A DNA stretch of 22,899 nucleotides from IMG/VR virus record IMGVR_UViG_3300036853_000072, positions 1 to 22,899 of that record; one strand, written 5' to 3'. This document shows positions 3,893 through 22,899 of the stretch, in pieces. Each line of letters starts with the position of its first letter. The stretch's first letter is position 1. The notes beneath the pieces are model-generated. The model was given only the letters and a program-made list of their open reading frames with translations, did not search any database and had not been told where the DNA came from. Position numbers and translations under genes: made by a program. Source of the stretch: a virus.

Positions 3893-4258
3893 TCAGTATG
3901 TCCACGCCTGCCCGGTATGCTTCACCAGGATTTCCAGGATACGCGCCCGGTTGTTCTCAATCGCAGGCCACAACCAGGCGTATTTGCCGCCGCGCGCGAG
4001 TTCGAGATAGATATCGTAATCCATGCCTGCCGAAAGCACGATGGTGATCAGTTCTGCCGTCTCCTGCACGATCTCGCCCCGCGTGGAGACATCCGTCGCG
4101 CCCGTGTCCGGCTTCCAACTATGATGCCCCTTCGCGTAGGTCTCCAAGAGCGCGGCAATCTCTTCGGCAGCCGTATGCGCGCCCTTGTGCAGCGCCGCGA
4201 TCCGAGCGTCCAGGTTGTGCAGGACGGTCTCTAGCCCGGTAATGATGATCTCTGCCAT
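3893..4258 (-). CDS. HK97 gp10-like head-tail/tail component
   Basis: This 121-aa protein opens with a helix (ITGLETVLHNLDARIAALHKG), then KGHHSWKPDTGA, then YDIYLELARGGKYAWLWPAIE. That order matches the HK97 gp10-type family, where a Tyr-rich loop is followed by PAxx near the C-terminus. Such proteins sit at the neck or tail end. The ATG shares one base with the stop of the upstream gene (TGATG), so the two are translationally coupled. Confidence 0.68.
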   Translation of the reverse strand: MAEIIITGLETVLHNLDARIAALHKGAHTAAEEIAALLETYAKGHHSWKPDTGATDVSTRGEIVQETAELITIVLSAGMDYDIYLELARGGKYAWLWPAIENNRARILEILVKHTGQAWTY

Positions 4259-4596
4259 CAGCCGATGATCTCCGTGTCTACCTGCATGGTGTACTCGTAG
4301 GTTCGCACCGAGAGCACGTTATAGTCCGAGCCGCCCGCCACGGAGAGCCGGTAGCGTACCTTGCTCTGCGGATTGGGCAGGATGGCTGGAAAGGGCGGAT
4401 CGAAGACGAATAGTTGCAGTTCCCGCGTCTCGCGTCCTGCCCCTTGCTCTTTCTCCAGGAGGCTGGTCGTGGAATAGAAATGCTGTCGCGCCGTTGCCGT
4501 CCCAATGGTCGTCTCCGCCTCCGTCGTGTCGCCATTCGCGTCTTTCGTGCTCACTACGCTCTTGATCGTCACGCTCACATCATAGGCGTCGCTCAT
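4258..4596 (-). CDS. Probable head closure/neck protein
   Basis: This is a 112-aa beta-rich protein with no catalytic motif (TARQHFYSTTSLLEKEQG, then LQLFVFDPPFPAILPNPQSK, then YRLSVAGGSDYNVLSVRTYE). Size, composition and position between the adaptor and the gp10-like gene fit a head-tail joining or head closure protein. I chose ATG 4596 because it forms an ATGA overlap with the stop of the small membrane protein gene at 4593-4706. A TTG at 4668 would extend the frame by 24 residues but would run through that gene. Confidence 0.55.
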   Translation of the reverse strand: MSDAYDVSVTIKSVVSTKDANGDTTEAETTIGTATARQHFYSTTSLLEKEQGAGRETRELQLFVFDPPFPAILPNPQSKVRYRLSVAGGSDYNVLSVRTYEYTMQVDTEIIG

Positions 4597-9278: not shown

Positions 9279-9851
9279 TCAACTCTGGTAGAAGTCGAGA
9301 ATCACATCATTGCCGTTGAGCGCGGAGTTCAGGGTTGCAGTATTGCTCTCCAGCACGGTGGAACTAACAGCAACAGTCGGCGCCGTGCCCTCTTTCGTGC
9401 CGTTGAGGTAAGCGGCAATCACGCTGTTTCGAGAGAGCCGCGCCGGAAGTCCGATCTTCGCGCCGTACCCGATGGCCGTCGTGGCGCCGGTTCCGTCGTG
9501 TGCCGGAATGGTGATCGAGGTAATGGACGCGAACGCCTTACTGCCGGTCACGATGCCCGCCGTATCCACCGTGAAAGCCGGAAGCGTCTCGGTAATGACC
9601 GCGCCTTCCGCGTTCGTTCCCGTGATGACGACCTGAATGGCCTTGATGTCGGTATTGGTTCCGCCTGCGGTCGCCGTGACGTTGCGCGGGGATGTCGGCT
9701 GCGTGATGCCCGTCGTGATCGTCTGCGGCGCGCCATTATCGGTCACGGCGGCATGTGCCATCGCGGCTGTTCCGAGCGCAATGGCGGACACCAGATAACT
9801 CCAGATGTCGCCGGGCAGGTTGAGTACGCCTTTGGGTCTAGTGATGCTCAT
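9279..9851 (-). CDS. Probable capsid decoration protein
   Basis: This is a 190-aa beta-rich protein placed directly after the major capsid gene. It carries a pattern frequent in phage genes at this position: ITQPTSPRNVTATAGGTNTD, then VVITGTNAEGAVITETLPAF, then GAKIGLPARLSRNSVI, then NGNDVILDFYQ. Proteins of this kind are thought to bind the capsid surface. Two ATGs lie in tandem at 9854 and 9851; the second has the better spacing to GGAGG. An Ala-rich hydrophobic segment near residues 20-35 (LVSAIALGTAAMAHAAV) could be mistaken for a signal peptide but is more likely part of the fold. Confidence 0.6.
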   Translation of the reverse strand: MSITRPKGVLNLPGDIWSYLVSAIALGTAAMAHAAVTDNGAPQTITTGITQPTSPRNVTATAGGTNTDIKAIQVVITGTNAEGAVITETLPAFTVDTAGIVTGSKAFASITSITIPAHDGTGATTAIGYGAKIGLPARLSRNSVIAAYLNGTKEGTAPTVAVSSTVLESNTATLNSALNGNDVILDFYQS

Positions 9852-14765: not shown

Positions 14766-16118
14766 TTAGGCCATTTCCGCCATGCGTCGTTGTCCGGTTA
14801 CCATCAGGGCTGTCAGCGCCCAGACCAGCGCGTCCATTCGGTCCGGGCTTTTCGCGCCGGGAACCCATTCGCACATCTGATCTTCCAAGTCGGGCAGCGT
14901 CCCCACGTGATGCACCCGGTTCTGCTCATAGAGTGCCGAGATCGGCTCTGCTCGCGTTTGCTTGCCCCGTGAGGCATGAACCGCCGTATAAGGCAGCGTC
15001 TGCCCGGCCTCTTTTGCGACACTGACAATCACGTACTCGACCATCGCGCCGCCGTTGTTGACCTCGGCCACGACCCGATCTGCGTGGTGGATGTTGTACG
15101 CCTTGAGGACTTCGCCGCCCCACACATTAGGGGAAGCGCGCACGCTGTAGTCGGCCAGCACGTAGGCATGAGGCAGCGCCCCTCCGGTCACACCCGCGAC
15201 GATAATGCCCGTCTCTGCCGTCTTTTCATCCGCGTTCTGCTCATCCTTATCCGCCGCCTGCGGGTCAACCGCCACCACGATCCGCACCAGATCGGGATGA
15301 TGGCGCACCCGGTTCGCCTCGATATTGGCACGGCTCCAGAGCGCGTCCGGGTTGTCATCCAGGATTTCGGCATTGAGTTCCTGCCGCCCCAGCCGCGTTC
15401 CCTCGTATTTGCGGATGACGCGGTTGATGTAAGGCACGGCGAGATTGTGCCGATTCTCGTCGGAGTGGCCTTTCGTGATAACCGCGTCTTCATCCGCAAC
15501 AAGCGCTTTGATGATAGGAGTCGCTCTGGGCGTCGTCGAGATGCAGGCACGGGGTAACTCGCCTAATCGCAACCCCATCTCGATGTTATCCCAGGTCTCC
15601 TGCGCGAATTTCCATTTCGCCAGCTCATCCGCCCAGAGCCTGTGATGTTGCGGCCCGCGCAGTTGTCCCGGCTCATCTCCGGAGAACGTGGTTGCCGTCG
15701 CGCCGTTCGGCCAGGTGATACGGCGCTTACTCGGCTCATAGCGCGGGTAGAACCAGGGAGGGGAGCAGGCCAATAGACCACTCTCGCCTTCCACCATAAC
15801 GTCGCGCACATCCGCCGCCGTCTGTCCTACCAGAGCGAATTTCTCGTACAGACCACTCTCTGCTTCGCGCCGTATCCACTCCGCACCGATGCGCGTTTTC
15901 CCGAAACCACGTCCCGCGAGAACTACCCAGAGCGTCCAATCCCCGACCGGCGCGAGCTGCTTATCACGCGCCCAAAACGGCCAGCGGTAAACGAGCTCTT
16001 CACGCTCCTCCTTCGTCAGGTTTCGCAGGAAGGCTTGCCGCTCCCAGTCGGGCAGCGAGGCCAGCCAGTTTGCTGTCAAGCGATTCTGCGATTCGGGAGT
16101 CGCGCACGTCAACGTCAT
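14766..16118 (-). CDS. terL: Terminase large subunit (GTA-like/Terminase_6 type)
   Basis: This 450-aa motor packages DNA into proheads. The ATPase has Walker A LAGRGFGKTR (67-76), Walker B LWADELAKW with Asp164 and Glu165, and the coupling motif STTPR (194-198). The nuclease has VAVDPQ with Asp285, AEVNN with Glu352 and DRMDALVW with Asp427/Asp429. The N-terminus (LPDWERQAFLRNLTKEE, WPFWARDKQLAPVGDW) matches the alphaproteobacterial GTA-like terminase type. ATG 16118 or TTG 16079 could be the start. Either way it overlaps the small terminase by roughly 80-119 nt, because the conserved N-terminal region itself lies in the overlap. Confidence 0.93.
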   Translation of the reverse strand: MTLTCATPESQNRLTANWLASLPDWERQAFLRNLTKEEREELVYRWPFWARDKQLAPVGDWTLWVVLAGRGFGKTRIGAEWIRREAESGLYEKFALVGQTAADVRDVMVEGESGLLACSPPWFYPRYEPSKRRITWPNGATATTFSGDEPGQLRGPQHHRLWADELAKWKFAQETWDNIEMGLRLGELPRACISTTPRATPIIKALVADEDAVITKGHSDENRHNLAVPYINRVIRKYEGTRLGRQELNAEILDDNPDALWSRANIEANRVRHHPDLVRIVVAVDPQAADKDEQNADEKTAETGIIVAGVTGGALPHAYVLADYSVRASPNVWGGEVLKAYNIHHADRVVAEVNNGGAMVEYVIVSVAKEAGQTLPYTAVHASRGKQTRAEPISALYEQNRVHHVGTLPDLEDQMCEWVPGAKSPDRMDALVWALTALMVTGQRRMAEMA

Positions 16119-16581
16119 GCTTTTCCGTCCACTGCCCCAACTCGCGGGCGGCTTGCTGCTCGGTCTGTCGCAGTTCGGAGAGCAGTCCCGCATCTACCGC
16201 AAACTCCTCCACGATCTGGAAATCCGCACCTTTCCCGATGCCCTTGAGTTGCTTCACGAGCAAGCCCGTCTTACCGCCCGGAATTTCCTGATTGCGCGGA
16301 TCGTCAGCGCGCTCGATGATGACCTGCTGCATTCGTTCCCAGTCGGTATTGAGGCGACGGATGCGGTTGACCTTATCGGCAATCCCCTGTGTCATGATTG
16401 CCTGCCGCCAGGCTTCCCGATGCTCCGAAACACGCTTCACGAACTCCGGCACAGTTTTCCAGGTTGCCAACGTCTGCCTAGTTATGCCTACCTGCGCGGC
16501 AATAACCTCGTCTGCCAACTTATCATCTGCGACGAGTTTTGCGGCCTCTTCGCGCCGATTGTTCCATTGCCAGGTCTGCAT
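16000..16581 (-). CDS. terS: Terminase small subunit
   Basis: This 193-aa protein has an N-terminal helix-turn-helix (RREEAAKLVADDKLADEVI, then AAQVGITRQTLATWKTVPEF) as in phage small terminases, which bind the packaging site. A helical oligomerisation region follows, then a polar C-terminus. Position just before the large subunit supports the call. ATG 16581 follows a weak GACGGAC SD. The last 40 or so codons are shared in another frame with the start of the large subunit. Confidence 0.78.
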   Translation of the reverse strand: MQTWQWNNRREEAAKLVADDKLADEVIAAQVGITRQTLATWKTVPEFVKRVSEHREAWRQAIMTQGIADKVNRIRRLNTDWERMQQVIIERADDPRNQEIPGGKTGLLVKQLKGIGKGADFQIVEEFAVDAGLLSELRQTEQQAARELGQWTEKHDVDVRDSRIAESLDSKLAGLAARLGAASLPAKPDEGGA

Positions 16582-16631: not shown

Positions 16632-16673
16632 AAAAAGCCCGCCGCCCCGTCACGATGGACAGGGAAGCGGGCT
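16632..16673 (-). terminator. Strong intrinsic terminator closing the RNA unit and the early region
   Basis: AGCCCGC (16667-16673) pairs with GCGGGCT (16636-16642) as read on the minus strand. An inner stem CCCTGTC/GACGGGG (one G-U pair) extends it, and a U-rich run TTTTTGTTGTTT follows. It reads only on the minus strand and separates the early genes and RNA unit from terS. Confidence 0.88.
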
Positions 16674-16713
16674 GTAATTCATTAGCCGCCGATATAAAGG
16701 TGAGCCGAGATCA

Positions 16714-16810
16714 TGCTTGCGGTGAGACGATTTGAACGCCTCCCCTTCATTTTCAATCCAGCCACTGCCGATGCAGTGAGGCTTACGCCTACAGCACTCG
16801 ACCGCAAGCA
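16714..16810 (-). ncRNA. tRNA-like structured RNA (about 97 nt), family not recognised
   Basis: TGCTTGCGGT (16801-16810) and ACCGCAAGCA (minus-strand copy of 16714-16723) form a perfect 10-bp closing stem. Inside are three hairpins: AGGC-GTAA-GCCT with a GNRA tetraloop, directly followed by CACTGC-ATCG-GCAGTG, and a 6-bp arm with loop TTCAAAT stacked directly on the closing stem. The last has the consensus of a tRNA T-arm (GTTCAAATC). A tRNA-Phe-like loop TTGAAAA is present, but its flanks do not form a good anticodon stem, and the closing stem is too long for a standard tRNA. A promoter lies just upstream and a terminator just downstream. It could be a highly divergent or decayed tRNA, a tRNA mimic, or a new phage RNA. 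Confidence 0.5.
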
Positions 16811-16827
16811 GGATAGCATACAAGATT

Positions 16828-16857
16828 ACTATAACACGCTTAGGCCATGATTGTCAA
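16828..16857 (-). promoter_or_regulatory. Sigma70-type promoter for the RNA unit
   Basis: On the minus strand TTGACA (16852-16857, perfect -35) and TATAGT (16828-16833, five of six for -10) are separated by 18 nt. The start of transcription would fall near 16820, about 10 nt before the closing stem of the structured RNA. The -35 lies in the last codons of the preceding small Cys-rich gene, so the promoter is internal to the early operon. Confidence 0.72.
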
Positions 16858-17055
16858 CGTCTGGTTGTATTCTATTTTCAGGATCGTTTTGCAGCGCGGG
16901 CATTTTCCACAGAGGGAGTGGACGCCAGGAGCGAGTTGCGCGATGGAGAGAGGCGACTCCATGTAGAGACGAAACGATACGAACCCGCTGGCGTTGGTAC
17001 GCTCTTCGGCGAGTTTAGTGCGACAGCATGGGCATATGACCGTCTTCTGAATCAC
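16840..17055 (-). CDS. Small Zn-ribbon protein (Com-like)
   Basis: This is a 71-aa protein with two Cys pairs: CPCC at residues 8-11 and CGKCPRC near 49-55. The second pair is followed by KTILKIEY, recalling the small Com-type zinc proteins of Mu-like phages, which bind mRNA. The GTG start has SD GAGGAGACGC and forms a GTGA overlap with the preceding gene. The stop lies inside the spacer of the promoter for the structured RNA. Zinc binding is likely; the role is unknown. Confidence 0.62.
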   Translation of the reverse strand: MIQKTVICPCCRTKLAEERTNASGFVSFRLYMESPLSIAQLAPGVHSLCGKCPRCKTILKIEYNQTLTIMA

Positions 17056-17357: not shown

Positions 17358-17554
17358 AGTGTCGCCTCCCTCACCAAAGTTTCTTTCCCACACGTAGGGC
17401 AGGCACATCCGCGCCACGAACCCTCTAGCGGACTGCTAGATAAAGCCGGATGGTAGGTTGTTTCCGACGCTTCCACCTCGAACTCTGCTCCACAGACCAA
17501 GCAGTGCCCCCGGTAAAGTATCGTTGGGATTTTGCCCTGTTTGATAATTTTCAC
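17354..17554 (-). CDS. Small Zn-ribbon protein
   Basis: This 66-aa protein starts at GTG 17554 (SD GGAGG, spacing 7-8) in GTGA overlap with the DUF5131 gene. It has CLVC at about 18-21 (RGHCLVCGAEFEVEA) and CACPTC at about 50-55 (RGCACPTCGKETLV), a typical two-knuckle zinc ribbon. A longer frame upstream would be read inside the DUF5131 gene and was not used. The function is unknown. Confidence 0.62.
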   Translation of the reverse strand: MKIIKQGKIPTILYRGHCLVCGAEFEVEASETTYHPALSSSPLEGSWRGCACPTCGKETLVREATL

Positions 17555-18642
17555 CGTGCCACCTCCGGCATTTCGTTCCACTCGCGCCCGTCCAAGAGCC
17601 TGCCAGCGAGTTTCTTGCCGACTTTCTTGCAGGCGCAATCAGAATGCAGGCTGTCTTCATGCCAACCCTTCCCTATATCCCCCGTTTCTGGGTCAATGAT
17701 GTCCAACCCATGCCCGTCCCATTCTTTGCCAGTCTGATCTATCCAGAACGGAGCCTGTCCTGCTTCCTCGAAGGGCAGATACTCGCCCCATTGTTTGAAG
17801 AAATATGGCACTTTCGCCGCCTGGCACTGATCGCGGATGGAACGCGCCCAGTCGGGATGCATCGGTCGCGCTCCGGCTCCCGACTCGCCGCCTACGATCA
17901 CCCAGTGGATGCCAATCTCGCAGCGGCTGATGTAGACGGCGCGAGCAAGATTGCTGATTATCCGCTCTTGCCGTGCTTCCGTCATAGCATCAAAGCCAGC
18001 AGGTTTCTCGCAAACCTCTGCTCCCGCAGGTATCCATGCCCGTAACTCAACCGTCCCCAAAAGCGGCTCACAGGACAGAAACCGCACCACAGCCGGAACC
18101 TTGAGCAGATGCGGAATGCGCTCGTCGGCGGTCTGCTGGTTCTCGACCGAGGCTCCGAGCCAGACGTTGGGGAGATAGCCGTGCTCTAGTTTGTGCCACA
18201 GGCTTGCCAGCGTTGGGGTATATGTCACCCGCAGTACCCATTCTATGTTTTCAGGCCGCTTCGTCAACAGAAGCCAATCCAGGTGTGGAGTTTCCTCAAT
18301 GAGAGCGAATAACCGTGCCCGTGCTTCGTGAACCGGCTTTCTGCTCTCTTCCGGCATGGTTTCATCACCCTCGAACACATCCGCCAACGACGCACAGAAG
18401 ACGCGATGCCGCTCTCCTGCCGCTTCTGCTGCTTTGTTCCACTTGAGAGGCTGCTGCCAGTATTTCTCACTGGCAATCACCCGGCTGCCCTTCGGACCCC
18501 ACACACCGAGCGTCTTCGGGTTCCTGCGGGACAGCGTTTCGGCATAGCAGTGTTTGCAGCCCTCGCTGACCTTCGTACAGCCGCGCCACATGTTAAAAGT
18601 GTGCCGGGTCCACTCGATCTTGCTATCTTCTCCCAAGTCCAA
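17551..18642 (-). CDS. DUF5131 / phage Gp37-Gp68 family protein
   Basis: This 363-aa protein opens with SKIEWTRHTFNMWRGCTKVS, followed by EGCKHCYAE. Cys22, Cys29 and Cys32 form a CX6CX2C cluster resembling a radical-SAM iron-sulphur site. Other family marks are RVFCASLADVFE, LDWLLLTKRPEN, NVWLGASVEN, RFLSCEPLLG and IVGGESGAGARPMHPDWAR. Members occur widely in phages and mobile elements; the reaction is not established. The start is TTG 18642 with GGAG upstream. The 3' end is coupled to three small Cys-rich genes, which suggests joint work on one substrate or metal site. Confidence 0.85.
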   Translation of the reverse strand: MDLGEDSKIEWTRHTFNMWRGCTKVSEGCKHCYAETLSRRNPKTLGVWGPKGSRVIASEKYWQQPLKWNKAAEAAGERHRVFCASLADVFEGDETMPEESRKPVHEARARLFALIEETPHLDWLLLTKRPENIEWVLRVTYTPTLASLWHKLEHGYLPNVWLGASVENQQTADERIPHLLKVPAVVRFLSCEPLLGTVELRAWIPAGAEVCEKPAGFDAMTEARQERIISNLARAVYISRCEIGIHWVIVGGESGAGARPMHPDWARSIRDQCQAAKVPYFFKQWGEYLPFEEAGQAPFWIDQTGKEWDGHGLDIIDPETGDIGKGWHEDSLHSDCACKKVGKKLAGRLLDGREWNEMPEVAR

Positions 18643-21875: not shown

Positions 21876-22703
21876 TCACGCCGTCGCCTCCATCAGCCCC
21901 ATTGCCTGTGCCTTGCGAAGCGCCTCCTCCCGCCCGTTCACGCCCCATTTTTTATAGAGGTTGCTCAGATGCGTAGAAATAGAGCCAGGGTGCAAGTTCA
22001 ACTCTATTCCGATTTTGGCGTTGCTCTTGCCCTCGGCCACCAATCGGAGGATTTTATCCTGCATCGGACTCAGTCCCTTGTCATCGCGTTTTTGAGGTGG
22101 GGTAGGGGCAGGCGTCCCTTCCGGCGCTTCTCCCTCGCCGTCCTCGTAGTCGTCAATCGCGCTCTCGTCGAGGCTGTCTACCGCCGCCATAAGCGCGGAC
22201 AGCCCGACCTCGGCTCTGACCGCATCTCTGGGTTTGAGGCGCATCTCGTCAATGACACTGGTGATGAATCGGCGGCATACCCGCACGTCCCAGCCGGTCA
22301 TCCGCTGCACTTCTCTGGTGTCAATGCCCTTCCTGGCAGAAGTGCAGGAGTGGACGTATTCCCGCGCCCATTCCTCTGGAGTCTGCTCTTTGGCCTCTGC
22401 TGGCGGGCAGTCGGGCGCTGGCTGCGGCTCTACCAGCGCCGCGAGTTCGGCAAGCCCGGCCTCCTGCTGCTCCTGGATCACGCTCTCCGCGAGGGACTGG
22501 TAGGGTACGTGCGGCAGTTTGCCGGTGAAGAGCGCATCAGGCGGAACCGTGATGCAGTCCGGAGTCGGAAACAGGCGCGCCAGATAATCGTCCACGGCCA
22601 TGCGGATAAGACGCGCGGTCGCTGAATCATCCAGATGGATGAGTATGTCGCCTACCTGACCCTCGACGATCTCCTGTAAAAGTTGTTGGTGTGTTGGTGT
22701 CAT
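21876..22703 (-). CDS. LuxR/GerE-type HTH transcriptional regulator
   Basis: The C-terminal 65 residues of this 275-aa protein (LSPMQDKILRLVAEGKSNAK, then IGIELNLHPGSISTHLSNLY) are a clear LuxR/GerE helix-turn-helix. The N-terminal 200 residues resemble no known receiver or ligand domain; residues 130-160 look like a further helical binding domain and 185-208 are an acidic Pro-rich linker. ATG 22703 was chosen for SD GAAGG; a longer frame to 22877 would run across a terminator. As the first full gene of the window it may set early or late expression. Confidence 0.72.
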   Translation of the reverse strand: MTPTHQQLLQEIVEGQVGDILIHLDDSATARLIRMAVDDYLARLFPTPDCITVPPDALFTGKLPHVPYQSLAESVIQEQQEAGLAELAALVEPQPAPDCPPAEAKEQTPEEWAREYVHSCTSARKGIDTREVQRMTGWDVRVCRRFITSVIDEMRLKPRDAVRAEVGLSALMAAVDSLDESAIDDYEDGEGEAPEGTPAPTPPQKRDDKGLSPMQDKILRLVAEGKSNAKIGIELNLHPGSISTHLSNLYKKWGVNGREEALRKAQAMGLMEATA

Positions 22704-22720
22704 CACATACCTTCGTGTGG

Positions 22721-22762
22721 AAAAATCCGGTCTGCCCAAGTGTTCCCCGTTGAGCAGACCGG
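22721..22762 (-). terminator. Intrinsic terminator upstream of the LuxR-type regulator
   Basis: CCGGTCTGC and GCAGACCGG (22727-22735 and 22754-22762) form a 9-bp perfect stem with an 18-nt loop, followed on the minus strand by ATTTTT. It lies between the partial upstream gene and the regulator start, only 18 nt before the start codon, so it may also serve as an attenuator. Confidence 0.75.
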
Positions 22763-22785
22763 TCGGGCAACGTTCGCCCCAAGTA

Positions 22786-22899
22786 TCATTCATGGACGGA
22801 GGGAGTAACGCCCTCCGCAGGACACACCAGCCCGCACGAAGACTCGAAGTCCCCCGTAGCGAATGTGTCCAGCGCAAGGGGCAGACGGTTCACGGCCTG
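22786..22899 (-). CDS. C-terminal end of an unidentified gene (partial at right edge)
   Basis: The frame is open from the right edge to TGA at 22786-22788, giving 37 residues (QAVNRLPLALDTFATGDFES, then CGLVCPAEGV, ending SVHE). A CxxxC pair may indicate metal binding. A stop followed 24 nt later by an intrinsic terminator is what the end of an operon would look like. An internal hairpin CGGAGGG/CCCTCCG (22797-22817) lies in the coding part. The product is not recognised, and the call depends on the frame continuing beyond the window. Confidence 0.4.
   Translation of the reverse strand, partial: QAVNRLPLALDTFATGDFESSCGLVCPAEGVTPSVHE

Follow-up and report, generated by a model that had tools for sequence, protein, structure and literature searches.

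We consider it fairly probable that the promoter, structured RNA and terminator found just before the terminase genes form the leader of a late operon, similar to the lambda pR'/tR' unit, and that the 97-nt tRNA-like domain within this leader is a lineage-specific, degenerate insert derived from a tRNA. The window (the whole 22.9-kb stretch of DNA analysed, an IMG/VR virus record) carries promoter, domain and terminator on the minus strand, like the recognisable genes around them. The order from 5' to 3' is the gene for a Zn-ribbon protein, the promoter, the 97-nt domain, about 40 nt, the terminator, terS (terminase small subunit, 16000-16581, minus strand), terL (terminase large subunit, 14766-16193, minus strand), portal and head genes. 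This places the unit after the last early-side gene and ahead of terS, which is the first gene past the terminator at a distance of 50 nt. An earlier note, made from the sequence alone, described the region as a stand-alone RNA unit. It is instead the leader of the terS-terL-portal-head operon, and the part that recurs in relatives is the promoter with the terminator and not the tRNA-like body. The same note listed a regulator of the early-late switch among the candidate roles, and a part in this switch is a candidate in our reading too, given that the unit heads the late operon and that promoter-terminator pairs are enriched before terL in relatives.

The consensus promoter, for which the earlier note named no strand, lies on the minus strand. 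Its -35 element TTGACA (16852-16857) falls inside the 3' end of the gene for the 71-aa Zn-ribbon protein (16840-17055, minus strand), which overlaps the promoter. An 18-nt spacer separates it from the -10 element TATAGT (16828-16833), which has a TG extension at 16836-16835. This sigma70-type promoter with an extended -10 element scores 11 of 12 and is the only promoter-like site with a score of at least 11 on both strands of the whole window. It heads the late operon on the same strand. Transcription is predicted from the sequence to start at G16821, 7 nt past the -10 element. At +2 to +7 (16815-16820, minus strand), a -10-like sequence TATGCT is a candidate sigma-dependent pause element. Such an element was found in 4 of 13 leaders against a mean of 1.5 in shuffled leaders (P = 0.053), and because this enrichment across the leaders of the family is only marginal, the candidate is weak. 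No direct repeat for Q binding was established at the leader.

Ahead of the first late gene, the short leader ends in an intrinsic terminator (16632-16673, minus strand), predicted to be as strong as had been noted (-28.4 kcal/mol). Its 15-bp stem with one internal mismatch (16673-16636) has a pair probability of 0.99 and is followed by a T run to 16632. The positions of the predicted start and of the terminator agree with the earlier estimate of about 190 nt for the whole transcript. An alternative antiterminator pairing of GGGAGGCG in the leader with CGCTTCCC in the terminator, seen by eye, was dropped because by our own estimate chance alone would give about one match of this kind. Repeats in direct orientation, short in length (TTACAAAAT, CTTACAGAAT and TTGACG), were noticed by eye at 16603-16575, directly ahead of the terS start, and the repeats GTTGGCAAAA, GTTGGCAAGA and TTGGCC were noticed in the same way at a similar place in the closest relative, L002. 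The repeats before terS are possibly a terminase binding site.

The 97-nt domain (16714-16810, minus strand) begins 11 nt after the predicted +1 position and is closed by a perfect 10-bp stem (16810-16801 with 16723-16714; strands TGCTTGCGGT/ACCGCAAGCA). It contains a first tetraloop hairpin, AGGC-GTAA-GCCT (16779-16790; pair probability 0.95), a second one, CACTGC-ATCG-GCAGTG (16763-16778), and a T-arm-like hairpin with 6 bp and a 7-nt loop, GAGGCG-TTCAAAT-CGTCTC (16724-16742), which abuts the closing stem and is coaxial with it; all are on the minus strand. In the 97-nt element alone, the pairing probabilities are 0.92 for the closing stem and 0.72 for the T-arm. The second hairpin competes with an extended form of the first. 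With a pair probability of just 0.45 in the element alone (0.36 in the full leader), it is the least certain part of the fold. Thus the closing stem, T-arm and first hairpin of the structure proposed earlier were upheld, and its second tetraloop hairpin is present but uncertain. The proposed structure has a predicted energy of -38.4 kcal/mol, compared to -39.8 kcal/mol for the minimum free energy fold, a difference of 1.4 kcal/mol.

Taken alone, the folding z-scores are modest. The value is -2.74 for the 97-nt element (-39.8 vs. -30.0 kcal/mol in shuffles, with 3 of 200 shuffles equally stable) and -2.64 for the leader. None of 4000 leader shuffles and none of 60 whole-window shuffles contained a T-arm with a coaxial closing stem of at least 10 bp. 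When real DNA of related loci (about 1.2 Mb) was examined, the T-arm and closing-stem pattern was found in real tRNAs and at one apparent chance site. The 97-nt structure exceeds chance expectation, and the observation is confirmed. No convincing DNA homologue of the RNA was found in GenBank phages, in plasmids, in IMG/VR by the exact T-arm pattern or in 82 related loci.

The domain does not fit a standard tRNA, as had been stated earlier. ARAGORN with default settings found no tRNA at the site, the tRNA covariance model RF00005 gave nothing at E ≤ 10, and no tmRNA match was found there. The proposed search of the site against Rfam (cmscan) gave no known RNA family at gathering score and no match of tRNA type. 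Like a tRNA, the domain has a T-arm with a 7-nt TTCRANN loop stacked on an acceptor-like stem. Its other features are not those of a tRNA: it has a 10-bp stem instead of a 7-bp acceptor, tetraloop hairpins, and an end ...AGCATGA with no CCA. It has no usable arm with a 7-nt anticodon loop, and the weak 4-bp anticodon stem appears solely in a relaxed model. At a relaxed setting (-ps90), ARAGORN places a poor class II tRNA-Pro(CGG) at 16807-16715. This call is weak because the same setting gives five calls in the window, four of them elsewhere. A degenerate tRNA, one of the ideas raised earlier, is possible. Most probably the domain is such a tRNA or a tRNA-derived insert, judged by its T-arm and closing stem, to which the support for a tRNA origin is limited.

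We then compared the region with related loci. A TerL search gave 80 IMG/VR and 21 genome loci, and further scans with the TerL proteins of L008 and L004 brought the set to 131 non-redundant loci after filtering. Coding-strand units of promoter followed by terminator numbered 11 in the 61.9 kb upstream of terL vs. 7 in the 1,003-kb remainder of the same loci. Upstream of terL, a coding-strand unit is present in 11 of the 131 loci vs. 2 loci with one on the antisense strand of those stretches; in the 120 loci other than these 11, no promoter-terminator unit was detectable at the thresholds used. The gap between the -10 element and the terminator is 13-127 nt in the units of relatives vs. 154 nt in the window. 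None of seven archaeal loci (Methanolobus or Methanomassiliicoccaceae) has a unit within 2.5 kb or less upstream of terL. Because sigma70 is not expected there, these loci are a consistent though small control.

The closest relative, L002 (TerL 62%), has a Zn-ribbon homologue at the matching position, a TTGCGA-17-TATACT promoter, a terminator (-33 kcal/mol) and terS in this order. Only about 27 nt lie between its predicted start and the terminator stem. The 97-nt body, for which a conserved structure had been sought in the gap between the Zn-ribbon gene and terS of relatives, is absent from L002. The domain is therefore outside the shared arrangement and is dispensable for the promoter-terminator setup. 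Searches with other proteins added few loci. The Zn-ribbon protein gave no relatives. TerS gave L082 and L083; of these, L083 was examined and lacks a comparable unit ahead of its terS. The protein p321 gave L105, and the stretch of L105 examined shows no TerS or TerL match. Among cultured or GenBank relatives, Desulfofustis phage OP947159 and MW202777 have TTGACA promoters directly before terS with no terminator between, and in Brevundimonas phage ON529863 a good promoter and an annotated terS are both missing at this place.

The leaders before terS in relatives also carry other elements. L121, L008 and L004 have initiator-like tRNA-Met(CAU) genes there, on the same strand as the domain of the window. 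The tRNA of L121 (388-463; record G091, 2816-2888) is intact, with a C1:U72 mismatch and an encoded CCA, and lies between a TTGACA..TATACT promoter and terS; L019, a relative of L121, has no tRNA in its leader. The CAU tRNAs of L008 (3294-3369) and L004 (2261-2333) are degenerate, and both have C33 in place of U33 and a 1:72 mismatch. In L010, the leader contains an antisense ORF of 138 aa (3992-4408) with Zn-finger/HNH-like motifs seen by eye, which is missing in L015. Thus, within one group and at one point, the leader is bare in L015, holds a tRNA in L008 and holds the antisense ORF in L010. A covariance tRNA search of the related virus records found tRNAs among terS leaders in L121 and L008 only. 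Because three relatives carry tRNAs and one carries an ORF there, the leader accepts cargo, and therefore a lineage-specific insert in the leader of the window is unsurprising. The sample is small (three tRNA cases and the window), and non-coding gaps are the expected place for phage tRNA genes anyway. These tRNAs are of normal size, in contrast to the window's domain with its long closing stem.

The arrangement in the window resembles pR'-tR' of lambda and phage 21, in which a strong sigma70 promoter heading the late region is followed by a leader of about 200 nt, an intrinsic terminator and the late operon, with a -10-like sequence right after the start; there, Q allows read-through of the terminator after the late promoter (PMC6606751). 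Unlike in those phages, the unit of the window stands directly before terS and its leader holds a tRNA-like domain. The scanned proteins of the window, from a record that may be a fragment, gave no antitermination match in Pfam or PHROGs, and thus no known-family Q. Because no Q protein was recognised, we do not assign the unit to the Q-dependent leaders. In Pseudomonas aeruginosa, the promoter-bound antiterminator AlpA overrides an intrinsic terminator behind the promoter (PMC7969949). Its target promoters share the promoter-then-terminator arrangement of the window, but no AlpA-like protein was recognised in the window.

By analogy, the sigma70 RNA polymerase of the host would begin transcription constitutively near 16821 and, unless modified, would halt about 190 nt further on at the terminator, giving a short leader RNA. 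Modification of the polymerase by a phage-encoded factor that loads close to the promoter would allow read-through into terS and the terL, portal and head genes. The Zn-ribbon protein (poor model, pLDDT 58) may be this factor, a guess from the position of its gene, which ends inside the promoter. In L010, L008, L015, L013 and L004, a protein with a sigma-region-4-like fold (model pLDDT 68) is encoded upstream of the promoter, and in L004 and L010 its gene is the immediate neighbour. The Q protein of phage 21 (6jny, 6p1a) is among the weak full-length matches of this protein (E about 1-2.6). These two kinds of protein beside the promoter are concrete candidates for unrecognised antiterminators. 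Our findings suggest that late control by a lambdoid-type promoter and terminator recurs in this terminase family of mostly uncultivated phages, with no recognised Q of a known family in the window. They also show that tRNA genes and other cargo are gained and lost by phages in such leaders.

Other explanations of the unit were weighed against the late-leader reading. One point against that reading is that the terminator might simply insulate the leader RNA, with terS transcribed from another place. In one rival explanation, the unit is moron-type cargo that plays no part in late control: a phage tRNA gene, now degenerate, that brought along a promoter and terminator of its own, and terS would then be served by another promoter. 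The T-arm with its canonical loop coaxial with the closing stem, the poor tRNA-Pro(CGG) fit and the CAU tRNAs in the same leader of three relatives agree with this explanation, though the tRNA-Pro call counts for little given the five calls in the window. However, L002 keeps both promoter and terminator although it lacks a tRNA-like domain, so these two do not belong to the tRNA. The units of other relatives also lack a tRNA, and the window has no second promoter of comparable score. We regard this explanation as rather unlikely. A fold that arose by chance, either in a leader of the ordinary kind or within a short coding region, would account for the modest z-scores and the lack of conservation, and a frame of 57 codons is open at 16823-16650. 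This is very unlikely, since the T-arm and closing-stem combination never arose in the leader shuffles. The frame has a TTG start at about the transcription start, with no space for a ribosome-binding site, and by our own estimate its length is unremarkable in a short GC-rich stretch.

The RNA itself could also be the functional product. In Shiga-toxin phages, the short pR'-tR' transcript is a stable sRNA, StxS, made by default (PMC7873438). The RNA of the window would likewise be a short default product of a late promoter and its terminator, but it has no sequence relation to StxS. A terminated leader that accumulates and acts in trans, as an sRNA on mRNAs or as a tRNA mimic on a host tRNA enzyme, would be in keeping with this precedent and with a predicted structured RNA that folds better than its shuffles. 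Because none of the searches gave a homologue, there is no evidence of conservation, and we find such a role unlikely. In a related version, which we hold to be quite unlikely, the late leader RNA would be a selected tRNA mimic. As long as the late operon is off, its terminated 190-nt form would engage a host tRNA enzyme or processing nuclease, and on read-through the domain would mark the point at which processing releases the terS mRNA. If true, the late switch would in this way be linked with processing of the tRNA-like kind. The put RNAs of phage HK022 act in cis as antitermination RNAs, and a structured leader that itself modifies RNA polymerase would be suitably placed directly between promoter and terminator; a strong 5' hairpin opens the leader in several relatives. 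However, those hairpins have no evident common sequence and the leader of L002 has hardly any room ahead of the terminator, which makes a cis-acting antitermination RNA highly improbable.

Several further features of the window and its relatives were recorded. A 333-aa protein at the end of the window (21876-22877) has a C-terminal LuxR-type/sigma-region-4-like domain and is a possible transcription regulator; it counts as a further candidate for the read-through factor. A DUF5131 protein (PF07505, phrog_2045) is encoded at 17551-18642, upstream of the late region. L107 (1500-1576; record G002, the record of the closest relative, match 9286-9358) contains a tRNA with a 6-nt anticodon loop that scores above the tRNA cut-off. 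In L014 (1054-1229), two tRNAs were found, a tRNA-Leu(CAA) and one with anticodon UUA, which would read the stop codon UAA and may be a phage ochre suppressor.
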